DNA of 64,000 nucleotides, from the NCBI GenBank assembly GCA_010015805.1, contig ML978129.1, forward strand, positions 372,001 through 436,000, read 5' to 3'. This DNA comes from Rhizodiscina lignyota (lineage: Eukaryota > Ascomycota > Dothideomycetes > Aulographales > Rhizodiscinaceae). A model generated the notes under the pieces. It searched no databases. It saw nothing but the letters and a program-made list of their open reading frames with translations, and was not told the DNA's origin. A program made the translations under genes and the position numbers. Below, one piece after another: positions 3,550-25,621 of the stretch; within the stretch, counting starts at the first letter, position 1, and every line of letters starts with the position of its first letter.

Positions 3550-6500
3550 ATGGCGTCTCCACGTCACATGAACGTTGATCGCCCGCAGCAGGCAAATGGC
3601 AATTTGTACGCAGACGGCGGTGAAGGCTACGCCTATGGCTCCATGTTCTCCGCCACTGCTCCTGGCCAGGCGTACGAGCAGACTTGGAGTCCACTTGACC
3701 CCAGTCTGGCTGCAGTAAATGCGCACGACGCTGCGCCCTTCCCGCAAAGCTGGCATCACAGTTCACAACCCCAGCAACAACCACCACCTCGCCCTCAGAT
3801 ACCTTTCAGTGCGAATAATAATTTCTACGGCGCCTCGTTTGCGTCAAGCTCTGCAGGCTTTCCAAATTCAAGCTACGCGTTCGCCGGCCATGCGAACAAT
3901 TTCAATGCATTCAGCAACGCCGCCCTTGACCCGTCGTTGGTCACTCCTACAACAACTGCACATAATGGTAGCTTCGCGTCAGCCTCTCCCTTCTATCCCA
4001 CATCCGCCAATCAGGCTACGGTCGCTCCTGCAGCTTTGCATGATCATGTACCCAGCAAGACTCCAACACCCGTCTACAACGTAAGTAGCATTCATCATGA
4101 AGATGAATCCGCATTTGATCGCTGACTGCTGCAACAGACATCTAATCGGCCTGCTCTGCCAATTCACGGCCGAGTTGGATCTGGTGTGTCACCAATGGGC
4201 CAATCCGTGTTCTCTGCTGTGCTGCCAAAGGGAGTTGGCAACGGCCGCTTCCTCATGATAGATGGTGATGAATTAGCAAAAGTAACCAAATCTACCAAGC
4301 TGAGCAACTTTGTCAATATTGGCGTCGATGAACAAGAATACGCCATCCAAAGAAGTGAGAGAGACCAGTGCCGTGACTACATAATGAAAATGCTAAGTGA
4401 TCCACCAGTTGCCAAAGTTGCAAGTCTACCGCCGAGAAAGTCACGCAATGAAATCAAGAAGCTTGCAGAAGGCGATCCGAAGATCCTTGGTATGTGCGCA
4501 GCGGTACTTTCGTGTCTGCATTTAACGCTAATAATATCCCCCAGCCAAGCTTTCCAAGAGACAGTCGAAGACTTCGAAGACTAAGGCGCCTAAAATTCCT
4601 CGACCAAGGCTTCCCTTCGGCCGCACGGATTCCAAAGATGTCTCAACACCCTCTTCTATTGAAACATCCTCTTCGGAGGAGGATTCTGACTACAGCTCAT
4701 CTGACGATGATCTCGATATTATCGAGACTCCGCCACTTCCCGAATCAAGGCCACAGGGCGCATTTGATGCAGTCAAGTACGATACTATCAAGGCAGTTTG
4801 GCTTGCTAGAAAACTCCGTCCAACTGCGGATCAGATACGAATCGGCCTAAAGGACCTCTGGGAGGTTCTGAGGACGCTCCGTGACCGCTGGAAGTCCGAT
4901 GGCGACGCGTTGAAAGTCGCAACAGAGGCGAAGAAGCACAGCGAATTGCCCATGCTTCGAGAACGCGTGAAAAGTCAGAGGGACATGCTTCAGGTTGCTC
5001 TAGCAGCACTATTAGAGCATGGAAACCCAGAACTTCTCGCTCTGTGAGTACACCATCACGTTCCCCCTTCCAAATTTGCTGCACGTGTTCTGCACGCCGT
5101 TCATTTACTTGCACCGGTGAACGTGTTCTTTACGAGAGCCTGAGTCCCAGATCCACCTTGCTTGAGTGATTGCTTAGTCTATGGGGCATCCTCTTGAATG
5201 GCCGTGATGAAGCATTCGAGACCAGCGATAATTGGCATAAGCCACACATTGCGCTGCTCAACAAGTGAGAGAGCACTGGGGCATGTCGCGGCGTTTAAGG
5301 CGCTGCGACAGAATGATGCGCCCGTGACTCACAAAGATTACTTGTGCCCGCTTGAAACATTGTTTTTGATGAACACCACGAATAGTTTTTAATTGATAAA
5401 GTGCATTGCTGATGATGTTCCAGAGTGGGCGAGATCCGACCTTTCCTCCAACTGTGCCGTCTTTTCTTTTCAGATCGTGTCAGAGACAACGATGTTGATG
5501 GTCAACTTACAAAGTTGATGCTGGAGGTTCGTTATTCTCCCTGGCTAGATTAATCATGATGAATCCACCCACTAATAAATGTCCGTAGCTCCTTCGCGGA
5601 TGCACAACAATCACGACCGAGCTCTTAGATGAGTACAATCTCAAGAAAATCCTTACGATGTACACGAAGCGGGGAAACGATGCTACCAAAAAGTTGGTGA
5701 AAGAAGTTGAAGACAAGGCAGCTGCAAATTCGAAAGCTCAGGCTGAGAAGTCTAAACTGGAGAAACCTGCTGCTGACGGAAAAGAGAAAGATGTCAAAGC
5801 CAAGTCCACAACATCGACTACCCCTCGCACCTCAACTCCGGATTCTATTAGTGTTGTCAAGAAATCTCTGGGAGACCCTACGGCCAAGCGAAGCGCCTCA
5901 ACTGGCCCCAGCTCTGTCAAGCCTTCTCCAACGCTACAGAAGCGTTCGCCATCCACTGTCGTAGATAAGACTGCAACCACGGGTACTGGTGCTGCAGCTG
6001 CGAAACCTAAGGTGCAACCAGCAGCCAAAGTCCCTAGTATGTACTCTGGTCTTCAATCCGCCGGTAAGAAGTCGACTGCTACTCCTGCTACAGCCAGTAA
6101 GAAGATCACAACGCCAGCAACCGAAAAGAAGGCTGCTCCTCCAGCGGCTTCGATGGTCGCTAAGTCAACTTCCACCTTCTCATTCAGTGACTACATGCGT
6201 GATCTGAATAAGCCCAAGGAGCCGGAGCGACCCAAAAAGGATCAGGAAGAAGAGCGTCCGCCTGAAACAGAAGAGCAGAGGGCGAAGCGCCTACGCAAGG
6301 AGTCTCGTCGCAAACTCCGCGTCAGCTTCAAAGAGGGCCCTGCCCTGGTTCAAGTTCGGTATTTCCACCACGAAGTAGAAGAAGACAGTGGCCGCGATGC
6401 AAATATGGTCCTCAATGCTGGAGATGTCGGAGACGAAGGACGCATGTTCAAGCAACATAAAGAAATGGAATACGATGAAGACGAAGAAATGGCAGATGCT

Positions 6501-7538
6501 GATGATGACCGTCTCCTCGAGTTCAAGTCGCCTACGCTTATCGACTTCAGCACCGTCGAGGTGGAGGAGAGGAACCGAAACTACGCTCCGTATGGTGGCG
6601 GTCAGAACATCCCAGATTCTCCCGAGAAAGCTGTGCAAGAGAAGCACGAATCTGACACCTTAATCCAAGTCTACGTCAATAGGGCTGATATTCCAGCTGA
6701 TCCGCGCGAACCGGCTAATCCATATTCGGGAGAAACGATGCCTGTAAGGGAGTTTGGTGTGCCTCCACAGAACATCCTTGATCGGGCTGCAGCTTTTCAG
6801 CCACATCAAGCGGCCGCATCTGCTGAATCAGCTTCAACTGTCGATATCTCTGCAATTCTCAGTGCATTTGGTAAGCCAACACAGCAGCCTAGTCAACCTC
6901 AGCAGGTTGCACAACCAGCACAAAATGGCTTTGAAAACTTGCAGAACATCTTTGCCCAATACTCCACACCCAATCAACCCGTTCCGCAGCCACAGCCAGA
7001 ACCTCAGATTGCGCAACATGTCTCTACTACTCCAGATCTCACTTCAATTCTAGCATCTTTGCAAGCCCATGGCTCCACACCTCAACCTCAACAGGCGCCA
7101 ACTCCGCAACCTCCACAGATGCCACAGATGCCACGGATCCCGCAGATCCCAAATGTATTCCCTCCTGCAGGACAAGCCCCCGACTTCAACGCGATGATGG
7201 CCATCTTCGCCCAGGCCGGAATGCCTCCGCCGACCATGCCTGGCTTTGCGCCACAGATGATGCAGCAAGGTTCAAACGACGGACATTATGAGCACCCAGA
7301 GCGCAAGCGCATGCGAGAGAATGGTGAAGATGGTGAAGACGGTGATAGAGGATACCCTCAAAAGAAGAAATTCGGTGGAAAGAAGAAGACTTTTGGCGAG
7401 GTTGGTCATTCTCATTCGGCCGAACTTTTTGCACCCGCTAACATTATTCTGTAGAAACCAAAGTATGTCGTCGCGTGCAAGTTCTATAAGGAGGGGAACT
7501 GCCGCAAGGGTGCTGACTGCACTTTCGTGCATGAGTGA
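3550..7538 (+). CDS. CCCH zinc-finger protein, probable fungal PNUTS/Ppn1-like PP1 regulatory subunit
   Basis: The model has seven exons: 3550-4080, 4138-4489, 4545-5043, 5178-5264, 5424-5526, 5589-7400 and 7455-7538. They give 3468 nt and 1155 aa. The N terminus is Gln/Pro/Ser-rich. Residues about 440-575 form a helical block ending in ELLDEYNLKKILTMYTKRG, which resembles a TFIIS N-terminal (LW) domain. A basic Ala/Ser/Lys linker follows. At residues 768-771 lies RVSF, preceded by basic residues and followed by VRYFHH, matching the RVxF plus aromatic-pair layout used to dock protein phosphatase 1. The last exon encodes a C-x7-C-x5-C-x3-H zinc finger (Cys1136, Cys1144, Cys1150, His1154). LW domain, RVxF and C-terminal CCCH finger in this order is the plan of animal PNUTS. 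Fission yeast Ppn1 plays the matching role in the cleavage and polyadenylation factor. Family membership is inferred from this plan. A different CCCH protein remains possible. Confidence 0.75.
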
Positions 7539-7988: not shown

Positions 7989-9083
7989 CTATTTAATGTT
8001 CTTTGCCAAATCGACAACTTCTGGCATGTCTTTGCTCAGTGATGTCAAAATGTCATGCCATACCTTGTCAATCAGCTCTCTACCCTTTTCGCCGCTTATT
8101 TCAGCAGCATCCCTGAAGCACTCAGTAGCTGTTTCTTACGTCGGAGAAAATTAATCAACTTACGGCTGTACTGCATCGTGTCGCCAGAATTTCCCCTGCC
8201 CTTTCTCGCCCAACGTCGCCCCACTCACGAAGATCCGTGATCCCGCCTCGGTGGATCTCATGCAAACAAATTCGACCATGCTCTTTAAGACATATCTGAA
8301 GGGATTGGACGAGAACTCGCGACCGATTCCGGATTTGACGTAGCCTGGACACGATGCAGTGACAATGAGTGATGAGGACTGGTTCTCGTGCTGCACTGAA
8401 GCAGCTATCCTCTTCATGGCGCACATGATGAATAGCTTTGATGCAGCATATTGATCCGCGCCTTCGTCGAGGAATGCGTTTTCGCCAAATGCTTTCTTCG
8501 AACTGTACGACTCGATGATGTTTGCAGCTTCCCGGTGCGCCGGCTTGACTTTGAGGCCTCTGTGCAATCCGGACGTTATGAATTGTAAACTGGAAGGGCT
8601 CGACGGGTCTGGATTTTCTTGGAGCTTGGGAAGTAAGAGCAGCGCAAGCAGCACATTGGATAGCGTGTTGACTTGGATGGTCTCTTCCCAGCCGTATTTC
8701 GACACCACATACGAGAACTTCCTCACTCCAGCGTTCAAGATCGCAACATCAAGGCGCTGAAGATCCTTGGAGGCACGAGCGGCGAATGATTTGATACTGT
8801 CATAAGAGTCCAAGTCAAGCTGCCAGACCTCCACCACTGGCACCACACCGGTCCGCTTCGAAACGTTCTCGATCGTCTCCTTGGCCGCGTTTCCCTTCTC
8901 TAGGTTGCGGACGCCAGCAATGATTTTCGAAGCACCAAGCTTTGCGAACTTGATACATGCCTGTAGTCCGATGCCGCTATTCGCTCCCGTGATTAGTATC
9001 GTCTTGCCCGAAAAGCTTGTAGTTGGATCCGCTGGCAATTTGATCCACTTGTCGTAGATGTAGTGTATCGTTCCGTCACTCAT
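7989..9083 (-). CDS. Short-chain dehydrogenase/reductase
   Basis: This is a classical NAD(P)-dependent SDR of 347 aa in two exons: 9083-8164 and 8112-7989. The 49 bp between them, 8163-8113 on the minus strand, have a GTAAGT donor. The Rossmann cofactor motif TGANSGIG sits near residue 33, the structural NAG motif appears as LNAGVRKF, and the catalytic pair is in QYAASKLFI (Tyr-x3-Lys). The N terminus (IYDKWIKLP) and the long substrate loop resemble the fungal retinol-dehydrogenase-like SDRs, whose substrates are usually unknown. Without the second exon the protein would end early at WRHDAVQP. Splicing adds a helical tail ending DLAKNIK. The gene stands alone, with no neighbouring polyketide or terpene enzyme, so a secondary-metabolite role is not suggested. 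Confidence 0.88.
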
Positions 9084-10572
9084 CTTGGATTGGGAAGTGA
9101 AGAGTTCTGTAGACAGCCTTGGAAGGAAAGAATCACAAAAGGATCAGTAGCAAATAAATCAAAGCAGTTGCGGCCGCCGCTGACACGAGCTCTGTAACCA
9201 AAATTCGGACAAACCGGGTGTAGTGCAATTCCGCTCCTCTTCCCTCCTGGAGTCACGGAGAAGCGCTGTAAGCCGTTGAACCACTAGAGTAATCAAGTAG
9301 AGAGTAAAAGCGAGACTGGCTTTATCCGACGAGTGTCAGACGATGAGAATACATTATAAGGCAATTTGCTTTGGAGCTGATTGAAAACAAAATAGACGAA
9401 GACATGGGAATTTGAAAGCATGGACTAGAAATATAGTCCGTTCCACACCGTTACCCCTTTGGATGTCGAGCTGATGTTTTGGACTCCAGATAGGGATCTC
9501 GCTTTGAGCGAGTCATGGATTCGTCAGCCCAAGTGGAGCAGCTTCTAGCATTCGAGCAGTCTTAGAGTAGAACATGAACCCCATATTGACTACATAACTA
9601 AAGAAGTTGTCAAGTCTCGGTCGAGAGTAAGAATGTATATCGGAACCGCTCTGTGTAACCCATTTCTGCACTACGCCATTTCGGGCATAGTGTAGATACT
9701 CAACCACATTCTTACACGATCTCACGCGTCTCTTTCTTCTATACCTCTCTCTTCCGTCCCCTCCGCACGGTATGCGGACGCATCTAAATTTAATCTCCGC
9801 TGGTTAAATCTAAGAGGATTTTGTCTGACTGCTGCCATTCTGCTTCCATTAGGAGTTCTTTGCGTATCGTAAATGGGCGACTTTTACGGGACGAACAAAA
9901 GCACTTCTGAAGCCACGGACTGAAGAAATTGCCGATCAGCTGCAGAGGTGATTCACCCAAATATGCCTTGGCAGATTTCTCGTCTCATTGGTCTATGGCG
10001 TTAAGGAGGCACGGGAGGTCGAAGTTTGCTCTCTTTCGTAAGGTTCAGGGCAAGGCTGACTGTACAGCACCGCCACCACCCCAGCTGAAGCCATGAGGAA
10101 AATCCTTCCCGAATTGGTATCCACAGAAGCTCTTATGCTCTTGAAACTCTTCCCATCATGCTCATAAGTCACTCATGCTAACTTGCAAGAGATCGGAACC
10201 CGGCAGGCTGCCCGAATCTCGCCGTCGCTCAGGCTAGCTTAGTATCATGAGATTGCCGCCTTTGTGGTTGTAGGAGCATGCTACTAGGAGATACCCGAGA
10301 AATACGGGTATACCTTGAGCTCTGGGCAGGGCACAGCACAACGGTTGGACGATGTGTCCGTGGGTTGGCGACATTCGCCGCCGGTATAGCAGTCTGCCTC
10401 GTGGTCCAAAAAGTCTCATTCCTCTTTATCCCATGGCAATGTTGTGGTGGCCTTGGGTGTATATAATATTCAAGGCAAGAGCAGCTTTCTCGCAGTTCCA
10501 ATCACGCGACAGTCTTCTCCACAAAACCCTAATCGTTTCCTCTTTCAAAGTCATCTCGTTTCCTCTTTCATC
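9084..10572. other. Long intergenic stretch without a supported gene
   Basis: Nearly 1.5 kb between the divergent SDR and tubby-like genes. Only short open frames occur and none has recognisable motifs or plausible exon partners. A TATA-like element at 10460-10466 is listed separately. Confidence 0.45.
10460..10466 (+). promoter_or_regulatory. TATA-like box upstream of the tubby/LOR-like gene
   Basis: TATATAA lies 107 bp before the chosen ATG. A pyrimidine-rich stretch follows at about 10530-10570, as is common just upstream of fungal starts. It is a pattern match only. Confidence 0.4.
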
Positions 10573-22937: not shown

Positions 22938-25621
22938 ATGGCCGACCAACACCATTCAGAGCCGGACATGGCTCAATTCTTCGACTTTTCTGACGCCGAG
23001 ATGCCTGACGTCTCACAGGCAATCGCAGAATTCACGACGGCTCCGTCTCCGCAGCTTGCTCCTGCAACATGCCCAAACCATTTCAATGAAGGGTACAGCA
23101 CGCCCTTTCGTCATTCAAGTGCATTGGCTCACGTGTTCACAGCTGTCTTTGTCCCACTACGCTGGGCGACTTCACCAACAATGCCGACTTCGATCTTTTG
23201 CCCGATGTTGCAGGTGCCACTGATCCGACAATCCGGATCCCGAGATTCTCGAGACCCGAGGCTTCCTGCGAGTACTGCCGCATTATGAAGTTGGATTGCT
23301 TCTTCTCATTCGAAGCGCAAAAGAGTTGTACCTCTTGCACTGCCCTATTCCGGCCTTGTAGTTTCATTCAAGAACCAGCGAATGCCATGGCCACACTACA
23401 TCCAGTGATGGAAGACGTAATGATTGAACAAGGCAGCCAGACCGGGCTGATCGCCTTGAAGTCCTGGAACCACGCCCGAGGTGGTGACGATGAATCGAGG
23501 TTGCCTGGCAGGAAGACCGGCATCAGATTCTCTCGAGATAATATCAAGATTCTCAAAACTTGGATGATGGAGCATCACGATCACCCTTACCCAACCGAGG
23601 AAGAGAAGGAGGAGTTGTGCCAGAGAACCGGCCTCAAGTCGGTCCAAATCTCAAACTGGCTTGCCAACACTAGGCGCAGGACCAAACAGTCCATGCGCTC
23701 ATCATCGCCCAGTCTGCCATCATGGCCGAATACTGGCTCTGAGGCTATCAACATCAGACCAAATAAGCAGGGTTATACTCATAAGAGCAAAGAATGGGAG
23801 ACCATGACGCCCATGGACAGATGGAAAATCTCGCCACCTGAAAATGAACCTGCCAATGTTGAAGATATTGCGAACGCCGTTGCTAGTACCACATTGACGC
23901 CACCGGACTCTGCGTCACTACAGGAGAGCAGAAAGACCCGTGCAATTGGTTCAAGCGCAAACTCCGATTCGGGTTCGCTTTGGAAGGCAAGGTCGTCAGC
24001 TTCTCTGGACACAGGCTTCTCAGCTGTATCGAGTGGATCATTCTCTAATGCATCTCTCGGCTCGGCTCTCTCCCATGGCTCCTCTCGCAACTCCTTCAGC
24101 TCTCTCGGGAGTAAGGTGTCAAAAGACCGTAGACGACGACGTCGCACCGCAGCTAATCCATCGAAACGAGCCAGCGCAGATGATACTCGTCGCATCTTCC
24201 AATGTACATTCTGTACAGACACATTCAAGAACAAATATGACTGGTCGCGGCATGAGAAGTCTTTGCATCTGAGCTTGGAGAAGTGGATATGCTCTCCAAT
24301 CGGTGAAGTCTTAACTGACCCTTCGACTGGGATAAAGAAGTGTGTGTTCTGCGACGAGGTCAACCCAAGCAATGCCCATCTTGAGCAACACAACTATCGC
24401 GCCTGTGAGGAGAAAGGCTTGCAAGCCCGTACGTTCTACAGGAAGGATCATCTTCGGCAGCACCTGCGTCTGATGCACAACTGCAAGATGATTGCGAGCA
24501 TGGAGGCATGGAAGAGCGAAGCGGCATATATTAAATGCCGCTGCGGTTTCTGTGGTGCTGAATTTAATCGCTGGAGCGATCGAGTGGATCATATTGCGAA
24601 GCACTTCCGCAATGGCGCGCATATGAGAGATTGGAAGGGCTGCAGAGGATTTGAACCGAGTGTCGCCGCACAAGTCACCAACGCTATGCCACCGTATCTC
24701 ATTGCCAATGAGGCGAAGTCACCCTTCCCATTCTCTGCGACCAACGAAAGCAGCATCAGACACCATTACCCGACGGCTGGCGAAGGGATGGACCTTGAAG
24801 CCATACTTCCAACTACCTCACTGGGTGTGTACGATATGTGCCAAACCGCAGCCGTAGGCCCTTCGCGGCAAAATTCTTTGCCCTCACTGACAGTATCCGA
24901 CTCCTTACAAACACCGCCTTCCACTTCGCTCACCGGAGCACATCAATATCCCCAGTATCCTTATCCATATGGCCGGCCCACCGTTGGTAGCACAACCTGC
25001 TGGGAGATCTTGACTGTCAGACTCGGACGCTACGTTGCAGACCAAATGAATAAATCACCTGGCGAGCTCATAACAGACGAGCAGCTGCAACGGGAGGCTC
25101 GGATCATTCTCTACGACGACGACGACACTTGGAACCAGACCGCTGCCGATAATCCGGAGTGGCTGAGCTTGTTCAAACAGGCTCATGGCCTCGCTCAAAA
25201 GGAAGAGAACAACATCGACCCGATTGAGGATCTTGGAATTGGAGATTTCACATTCGATCATTTCTTCGAGGGCTCCAACGCTGGGCTCGGAGGTCTCAGC
25301 CTTGCGGAGGACCTCGAGATTCCAACCACGACCGCCCTCGACGCCGTCATCGGTACGGGCGACCTGGGATTCGGTGCGCTGACAACTCATGCGCCGGGAG
25401 TAGGCGAGTTTGCCGCTATGAGCATGGGTCTCGATTACCAGGAATTGGAGAGCGCTGTCAAGTCGAGCGCACAGATAGAGATGATGCGACCTGCTGTCGA
25501 CCTGATGGACCTGCATTGTCTGTATGCAGATTGTCGGAACGAACCGATTGAGAACCCACTTCCCACCACATCTGCTGGTGAGAATTGTGGCGAGAATTGT
25601 GCACAGCGATCTCTTTCTTAA
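22938..25621 (+). CDS. Homeodomain plus C2H2 zinc-finger transcription factor
   Basis: The model has two exons, 22938-23092 and 23143-25621, encoding 877 aa. The 50-bp intron joins HFNEG to CLCPTTLGDF. Residues 94-124 are a Cys cluster (CEYCRIMKLDC, then SCTSC and FRPC) resembling a fungal binuclear-zinc motif. Residues about 175-235 are a TALE/KN-type homeodomain ending VQISNWLANTRRRTK. In recognition helix 3 the usual WF is WL. A Ser-rich linker and a basic run (DRRRRRR, a likely nuclear signal) follow. Then come C2H2-like fingers near residues 402-430, 452-490 and 518-545 (QCTFCTDTF, CVFCDE and CRCGFCGAEF, with His partners). This combination is known in Pezizomycotina regulators of development. 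Targets cannot be told from sequence. The acidic, Asp-rich C terminus could be an activation region. Confidence 0.88.

Follow-up and report, generated by a model that had tools for sequence, protein, structure and literature searches.

A candidate PNUTS-type regulator of protein phosphatase PP1 with a C-terminal CCCH finger in the fungus Rhizodiscina lignyota

Gene model and layout of the predicted protein

The window that was analysed is a stretch of 64,000 nucleotides of Rhizodiscina lignyota (contig ML978129.1, positions 372,001 to 436,000), and all positions below refer to it unless another contig is given. It carries a gene at 3550-7538 on the forward strand, which is modelled with six exons with GT-AG borders and encodes a predicted protein of 1,126 amino acids. 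The exons are the following:

3550..4080, forward strand: exon 1, aa 1-177, the low-complexity N terminus; an open frame from the ATG to a GTAAGT donor
4138..4489, forward strand: exon 2, aa 178-295 with the last codon split; CAACAG acceptor and GTATGT donor
4545..5043, forward strand: exon 3, aa 295-461; the putative TFIIS-N helical block begins at 4760
5424..5526, forward strand: exon 4, aa 461-495, the middle part of the putative TFIIS-N block
5589..7400, forward strand: exon 5, aa 496-1099, with the end of the helical block, a low-complexity linker, the PP1 motifs, the downstream block and the short repeats
7455..7538, forward strand: exon 6, the C-terminal CCCH finger (PF00642 match) and the stop codon

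Introns 1, 2, 4 and 5 measure 54-62 nt and intron 3 (5044-5423), with its 380 nt, is far longer than these four. Short introns, like the gene content, suggest a filamentous fungus. A first model, in which exon 4 started at 5484 (acceptor 5483) and the protein counted 1,106 amino acids, was dropped for the acceptor ending at 5423, which upon inspection of the frames puts LVGEIRPFLQLCRLFFSDRVR in frame right before DNDVDGQLTKLMLELL. Both acceptors are in frame, and the one at 5423 was picked for the 20 additional, helix-like residues, not on a score. The first model was used for the PF00642 search, the first PDB search and the shuffles with RVxF alone; it differs from the corrected one only by the 20 amino acids that are missing in the helical block. 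The block encoded by exon 2 (FSAVLPKGVGNGRFLMIDGDELAKVTKSTKLSNFV onward; 4138-4489) resembles a small domain. It had no Pfam match when the first model was searched, and an AF2 prediction of exon 2 alone from the single sequence was uninformative (mean pLDDT 40).

The CCCH finger

A C-terminal CCCH finger had been read from the sequence in an earlier note on this locus, and the finger was indeed recovered: it is encoded at 7476-7532, its CCCH residues span aa 1107-1125 and it scores 21.6 bits on PF00642, above the cut-off of 20.5 (first model). Among the six Pfam families listed for the protein this is the only one that passes its cut-off, in agreement with the expectation that the gene would be labelled only as a CCCH protein. 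The genome that was searched (33.4 Mb in 29 contigs) contains 13 matches to the CCCH finger.

The helical block

The same note saw an LW/TFIIS-N-like block upstream of the PP1 motifs. The helices of this proposal are predicted, as an AF2 model of the exon-3 part of the block (window 4748-5041) was helical with a mean pLDDT of 68; a match to the TFIIS-N family in Pfam or PDB was not recovered. More explicitly, aa 367-545 had no Pfam match even at an E-value of 10, whereas PF08711 recognises rat PNUTS with 47.5 bits, and comparison of the helical block with the PDB (E up to 10) gave 5 and 4 matches, with no PNUTS or TFIIS among them. The matches were to designed helical proteins, ATP synthase b and PBP1, and the best E-value of 0.0015 belonged to a designed helical protein. 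Foldseek found nothing for the exon-3 part at E 0.001; relaxing the threshold to E 10 gave 461 matches, and the 50 of these that were listed were mostly 14-3-3 proteins, with none named PNUTS or TFIIS. The pairwise alignment with rat PNUTS lends a TFIIS-N domain nothing: with the corrected model it scored 35 on 177 aa, which was equalled or exceeded in 413 of 2,000 shuffles, and with the first model 41 on 165 aa (56 of 1,000 shuffles). The hhalign probability for the block was around 0.2 on a scale of 0-100.

A small home-made profile of seven TFIIS-N pieces, three of which came from this genome, placed TITTELLDEYNLKKILTMYTKRGND where it was expected, weakly so at 3.7 bits and an E-value of around 6. 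Twenty of 2,000 shuffles did as well (1,613 were scored, the best shuffle reaching 11.7 bits), and on the full-length protein the profile gave 0.3 bits. The LW tryptophan that is common to all seven pieces is absent from the fungal block, and the putative LW region is encoded by parts of three exons. BLAST is reported to have linked S. pombe Ppn1 with PNUTS (PMC4063703), and Phyre2 to have matched its TFIIS-like block at 99.4% (PMC7990198). Given that the Ppn1 block can be detected in these ways, the block described here stands out in the family as difficult to identify, and its TFIIS-N/LW identity is putative.

The putative PP1-docking strip

Human PNUTS docks PP1 via an arrangement of RVxF, PhiR, PhiPhi, Phe and Arg motifs, formed by V399/W401, L407, Y410-F411, F413 and R420, respectively (PMC10731240). 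Counted from the RVxF aromatic, the anchors that follow are found at +6, +9/+10, +12 and +19, and at these positions the fungal protein has L748, V751-R752, F754 and D761. The elements of the strip are:

6318..6329, forward strand: the RVxF motif RVSF, aa 739-742
6345..6347, forward strand: L748 at the PhiR position, which matches L407 of human PNUTS and L516 of S. pombe Ppn1
6354..6365, forward strand: V751-R752 (PhiPhi position) and Y753-F754, in which F754 takes the Phe position (PNUTS F413)

The RVSF with its upstream basic residues is present as had been described, and four of the five positions before its valine (RRKLR) are basic, within the string SRRKLRVSF of aa 734-742. The VRYFHH that was said to follow is present as well, encoded at 6354-6371 and thus just past position 6350, at which the feature had been closed. 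At the Arg site (R420 of PNUTS, +19) there is no match, as the fungal protein has an Asp. Considering that an R420A replacement was reported to be without effect on the association with PP1 in human cells (PMC10731240), the Arg motif is not a required feature. Degenerate forms of PhiPhi are on record, VK and HH among them (PMC10731240), which would make VR acceptable at this position.

In the earlier note the YF was taken as the aromatic pair that contacts PP1. F754 does occupy the Phe site, but the spacing of PNUTS puts PhiPhi at V751-R752, and a placing of Y753-F754 as PhiPhi needs a linker of 10 residues between the motifs. With the human peptide letters taken from 4MOY, the ungapped register scores only 13, and the local alignment that scores highest for the strip, YFHHEVEE against YFYFELDE, is in the other register and was equalled or bettered in 97 of 5,000 shuffles. 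On the basis of the +6, +9 and +12 anchors, which are present in the ungapped register, we favour this register, with VR as the likely PhiPhi, over the one with YF. The PP1 region had 0 matches in the PDB. The motif that Ref2 carries upstream, I/L-x-R-x-G-K/R, was not found before RVSF when searched by eye, the nearest string being LRKESR (aa 730-735).

The expected frequency of the motif

An RVxF motif by itself occurred in 31% of 20,000 shuffles (first model). This favours a rival reading, by which the gene encodes an RNA-binding CCCH protein with no relation to PNUTS and an RVxF-like string has arisen by chance in a basic low-complexity region. The common occurrence of CCCH fingers, with the 13 matches in this genome, also suits such a protein, as does the helical block without a family match, though that of fission-yeast Ppn1 is recognisable. 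The number of chance occurrences drops when more of the strip is taken into account (corrected model): 904 of 100,000 shuffles combined RVxF with an aromatic pair that comes 5-10 residues later, and 5 of 100,000 contained a strict set in the PNUTS register (+6, +9 and +12). The strict set was drawn up after seeing the protein, although its positions follow the register that has been published for PNUTS. It comprises a minimum of three basic residues within the five that precede the valine, a hydrophobic residue at +6 and at +9 and a Phe at +12, with +10 left out. In a sample of 368 six-frame open frames with a minimum length of 100 aa (64,947 aa in total, from the window and further loci, most of them not genes) this set appeared a single time, in the gene described here, and the loose one three times. 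The rarity of the anchor set in the PNUTS register, together with the elements that follow it (see below), makes a chance string an improbable explanation.

The downstream block and the short repeats

Beyond the PP1 strip, exon 5 encodes the following elements:

6615..6752, forward strand: block of aa 838-883 that is like human PNUTS beyond its PP1 motif (local alignment, provisional human letters)
6843-6869, forward strand: first DhxxILxxh repeat, DISAILSAF, at aa 914
7035-7061, forward strand: second repeat, DLTSILASL, at aa 978
7182-7208, forward strand: third repeat, DFNAMMAIF, at aa 1027

The alignment of aa 753 (YF) to 883 with human PNUTS scored 63 and was matched by 1 of 5,000 shuffles; it starts at YF and excludes RVSF, and the human letters beyond the 4MOY peptide were provisional. 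For these provisional letters no PDB entry was found. The part beyond the PP1 strip alone scored 51, with 44 of 5,000 shuffles as good (provisional human letters). The three repeats are of the form D-h-x-x-I/M-L/M-x-x-h and the tail around them is rich in glutamine and proline. None of 100,000 shuffles of aa 881-1095 contained three copies of the pattern, which was fixed after the repeats had been seen. Human PNUTS presumably contains one repeat-like match, NVQEILTSI (provisional letters), as against the three in the fungal protein, and the repeats may possibly represent a docking motif that is shared between the two.

The regions of PNUTS (aa 380-530), Ref2 (aa 406-533) and LUMINIDEPENDENS (LD; aa 566-661) that were modelled with WDR82, Swd2 and APRF1, respectively, are given in PMC7616277, and the Swd22 site of Ppn1 (aa 533-578) lies directly after its Dis2 site (PMC7990198). 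Accordingly, a WD40-binding block would sit in the usual place in the fungal protein, and by analogy the block of aa 838-883 is a possible WDR82/Swd2-binding part.

The PNUTS-like block, the repeats and the finger thus follow the strip in the order found in PNUTS (human letters partly provisional), which speaks against a chance string. That the protein is another kind of PP1 regulator (glycogen-targeting, NIPP1-like or fungus-specific), which docks via RVxF and has no role in 3' end processing, is very unlikely: taking YF as PhiPhi would give it the 10-residue linker between RVxF and PhiPhi that is described for the glycogen-targeting subunit GM (PMC10731240), but apart from a weak Torus match the Pfam search at E up to 1 gave no domain besides the finger, be it carbohydrate-binding, FHA or another, and the finger and the PNUTS-like block fit PNUTS.

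Potential partners and competitors in the genome

A PP1 and a WDR82/Swd2-like gene, the candidate partners, are both present in the genome. Two loci match STPPase_N, at C11:363838 and C2:1831083; judged by their frames the former reads as PP1 and the latter, which is located within a frame of 763 aa, is possibly a PPZ. The WDR82-like gene has its exons at C1:3055197-3056243 and shows 42-43% identity to a provisional human WDR82 sequence; its two exon matches were the best among the 11 listed in this one-way search with the provisional query. PF08711 has three matches in the genome at E up to 10. These loci were considered as rival PNUTS genes and rejected, since, by their frames, L009 reads as TFIIS that ends in a zinc ribbon, L010 as Set2 with SET and WW regions and L011 as IWS1. 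A competitor with a domain as diverged as the one described here may still exist. A search of viral and prokaryote contig collections with exon 5 gave 23 and 77 pattern-matching stretches, respectively, and no relative was confirmed among them.

Comparison with known PNUTS-type proteins

The published scheme of human and Drosophila PNUTS shows a TFIIS-like region, a Ser-rich region, a central PP1 region and a CCCH finger (PMC3814315), and the motif order of the fungal protein corresponds to it, as had been claimed. In both animal PNUTS (PPP1R10) and the fungal protein a helical block is followed by the basic-RVxF-PhiR-PhiPhi-Phe strip, then by a downstream block and finally by the CCCH finger at the C terminus. 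The anchors at +6 and +12 are shared as well, and the one at +9/+10 putatively so. The fungal protein differs by the long low-complexity N terminus that precedes the helical block, by VR in place of YF at the PhiPhi position, and by the absence of the Arg at +19 and of the LW Trp. Its finger has a C-x7-C spacing, whereas that of human PNUTS is C-x8-C.

The other counterparts were compared by description. S. pombe Ppn1 shares the disordered N terminus, followed by a TFIIS-like block and a basic-VxW motif with a Leu at +6. It was reported to need V508, W510 and D515-L516 for the binding of Dis2 in two-hybrid assays (PMC7990198), and from W510 and L516 it follows that its Leu is again at +6. The two proteins differ in that the TFIIS-like block of Ppn1 is recognisable by BLAST and Phyre2 and the one described here is not. 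Moreover, the sections of the literature consulted on the 710-aa Ppn1 mention no zinc finger, whereas the fungal protein has one, in line with the claim that the finger is kept here. In Ref2 of S. cerevisiae, PP1 docking likewise goes through a motif that resembles RVxF, and PhiPhi follows SIKF at +9/+10 (PMC10783616). In contrast to Ref2, the fungal protein lacks the upstream I/L-x-R-x-G-K/R motif and has a canonical RVSF; the Ref2 paper contains no mention of zinc. Finally, LD of Arabidopsis is described as a TFIIS-domain-bearing, mostly unstructured partner of PP1 and the Swd2 homologue (PMC7616277), to which the fungal protein can be likened.

Interpretation

Given that the elements come in this order and that the genome has both PP1 and a WDR82-like gene, the gene is best read as one for a PNUTS-type regulator of PP1. 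We estimate the probability that it is the fungal counterpart of PNUTS, Ppn1 and Ref2, with the animal order and the finger included, at roughly 0.8. The original proposal of a fungal PNUTS in the cleavage and polyadenylation factor (CPF) is therefore maintained with respect to the type of regulator. The analysis establishes the gene model, the motif set in the register of PNUTS, the finger and the existence of PP1 and WDR82-like genes, whereas all binding steps, membership of the CPF and the TFIIS-N fold are inferred.

As such, the protein would be a largely low-complexity scaffold, on which the RVxF-PhiR-PhiPhi-Phe strip would clamp PP1 on the face away from the active site. The downstream block probably holds a Swd2/WDR82 protein, and the N-terminal helical block and the C-terminal finger probably contact transcription factors and RNA. 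At the ends of genes the protein would in this way deliver PP1 to RNA polymerase II and the proteins that work with it, whose dephosphorylation would promote termination.

A module of the PP1-PNUTS-WDR82 type has been described in animals, fission yeast, budding yeast, Leishmania and Arabidopsis, and in the open-licence titles and abstracts covered, including PMC6506691, we encountered no description of a PNUTS-type protein in filamentous fungi, among them Neurospora, Magnaporthe and Aspergillus. A 2025 review of fungal polyadenylation lists Ref2 as yeast-specific (PMC12667328), and the gene argues against that view. The module itself is well known and it is the finger that is the notable feature of the fungal gene; fungal databases probably contain such genes already, labelled as CCCH proteins. 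If the reading as a PNUTS-type subunit is correct, it fills in a non-yeast fungus the gap that is left by a yeast-specific Ref2, it opens the finger and the repeats to tests in genetically tractable fungi, and it warns that domain searches may tag such genes merely as CCCH proteins. The gain would be in evolution and annotation and not in mechanism. The chances seem evenly balanced that the animal-fungal ancestor had a full PNUTS, with TFIIS-N, PP1 strip, WDR82 block, ILxxh and CCCH, all of which the filamentous fungi would have kept while multiplying the ILxxh, and that the well-studied yeasts lost the finger, from which the reviewers' view of Ref2 would have arisen.

Other genes in the window

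The neighbouring long frames on the reverse strand belong to the Sec1 family (857-1837) and the short-chain dehydrogenases (8160-9143). Further downstream, at 23090-25621, a single frame of 843 aa combines a KN homeobox with a DNA-binding helix of the Tc5-transposase type (E 9e-5).
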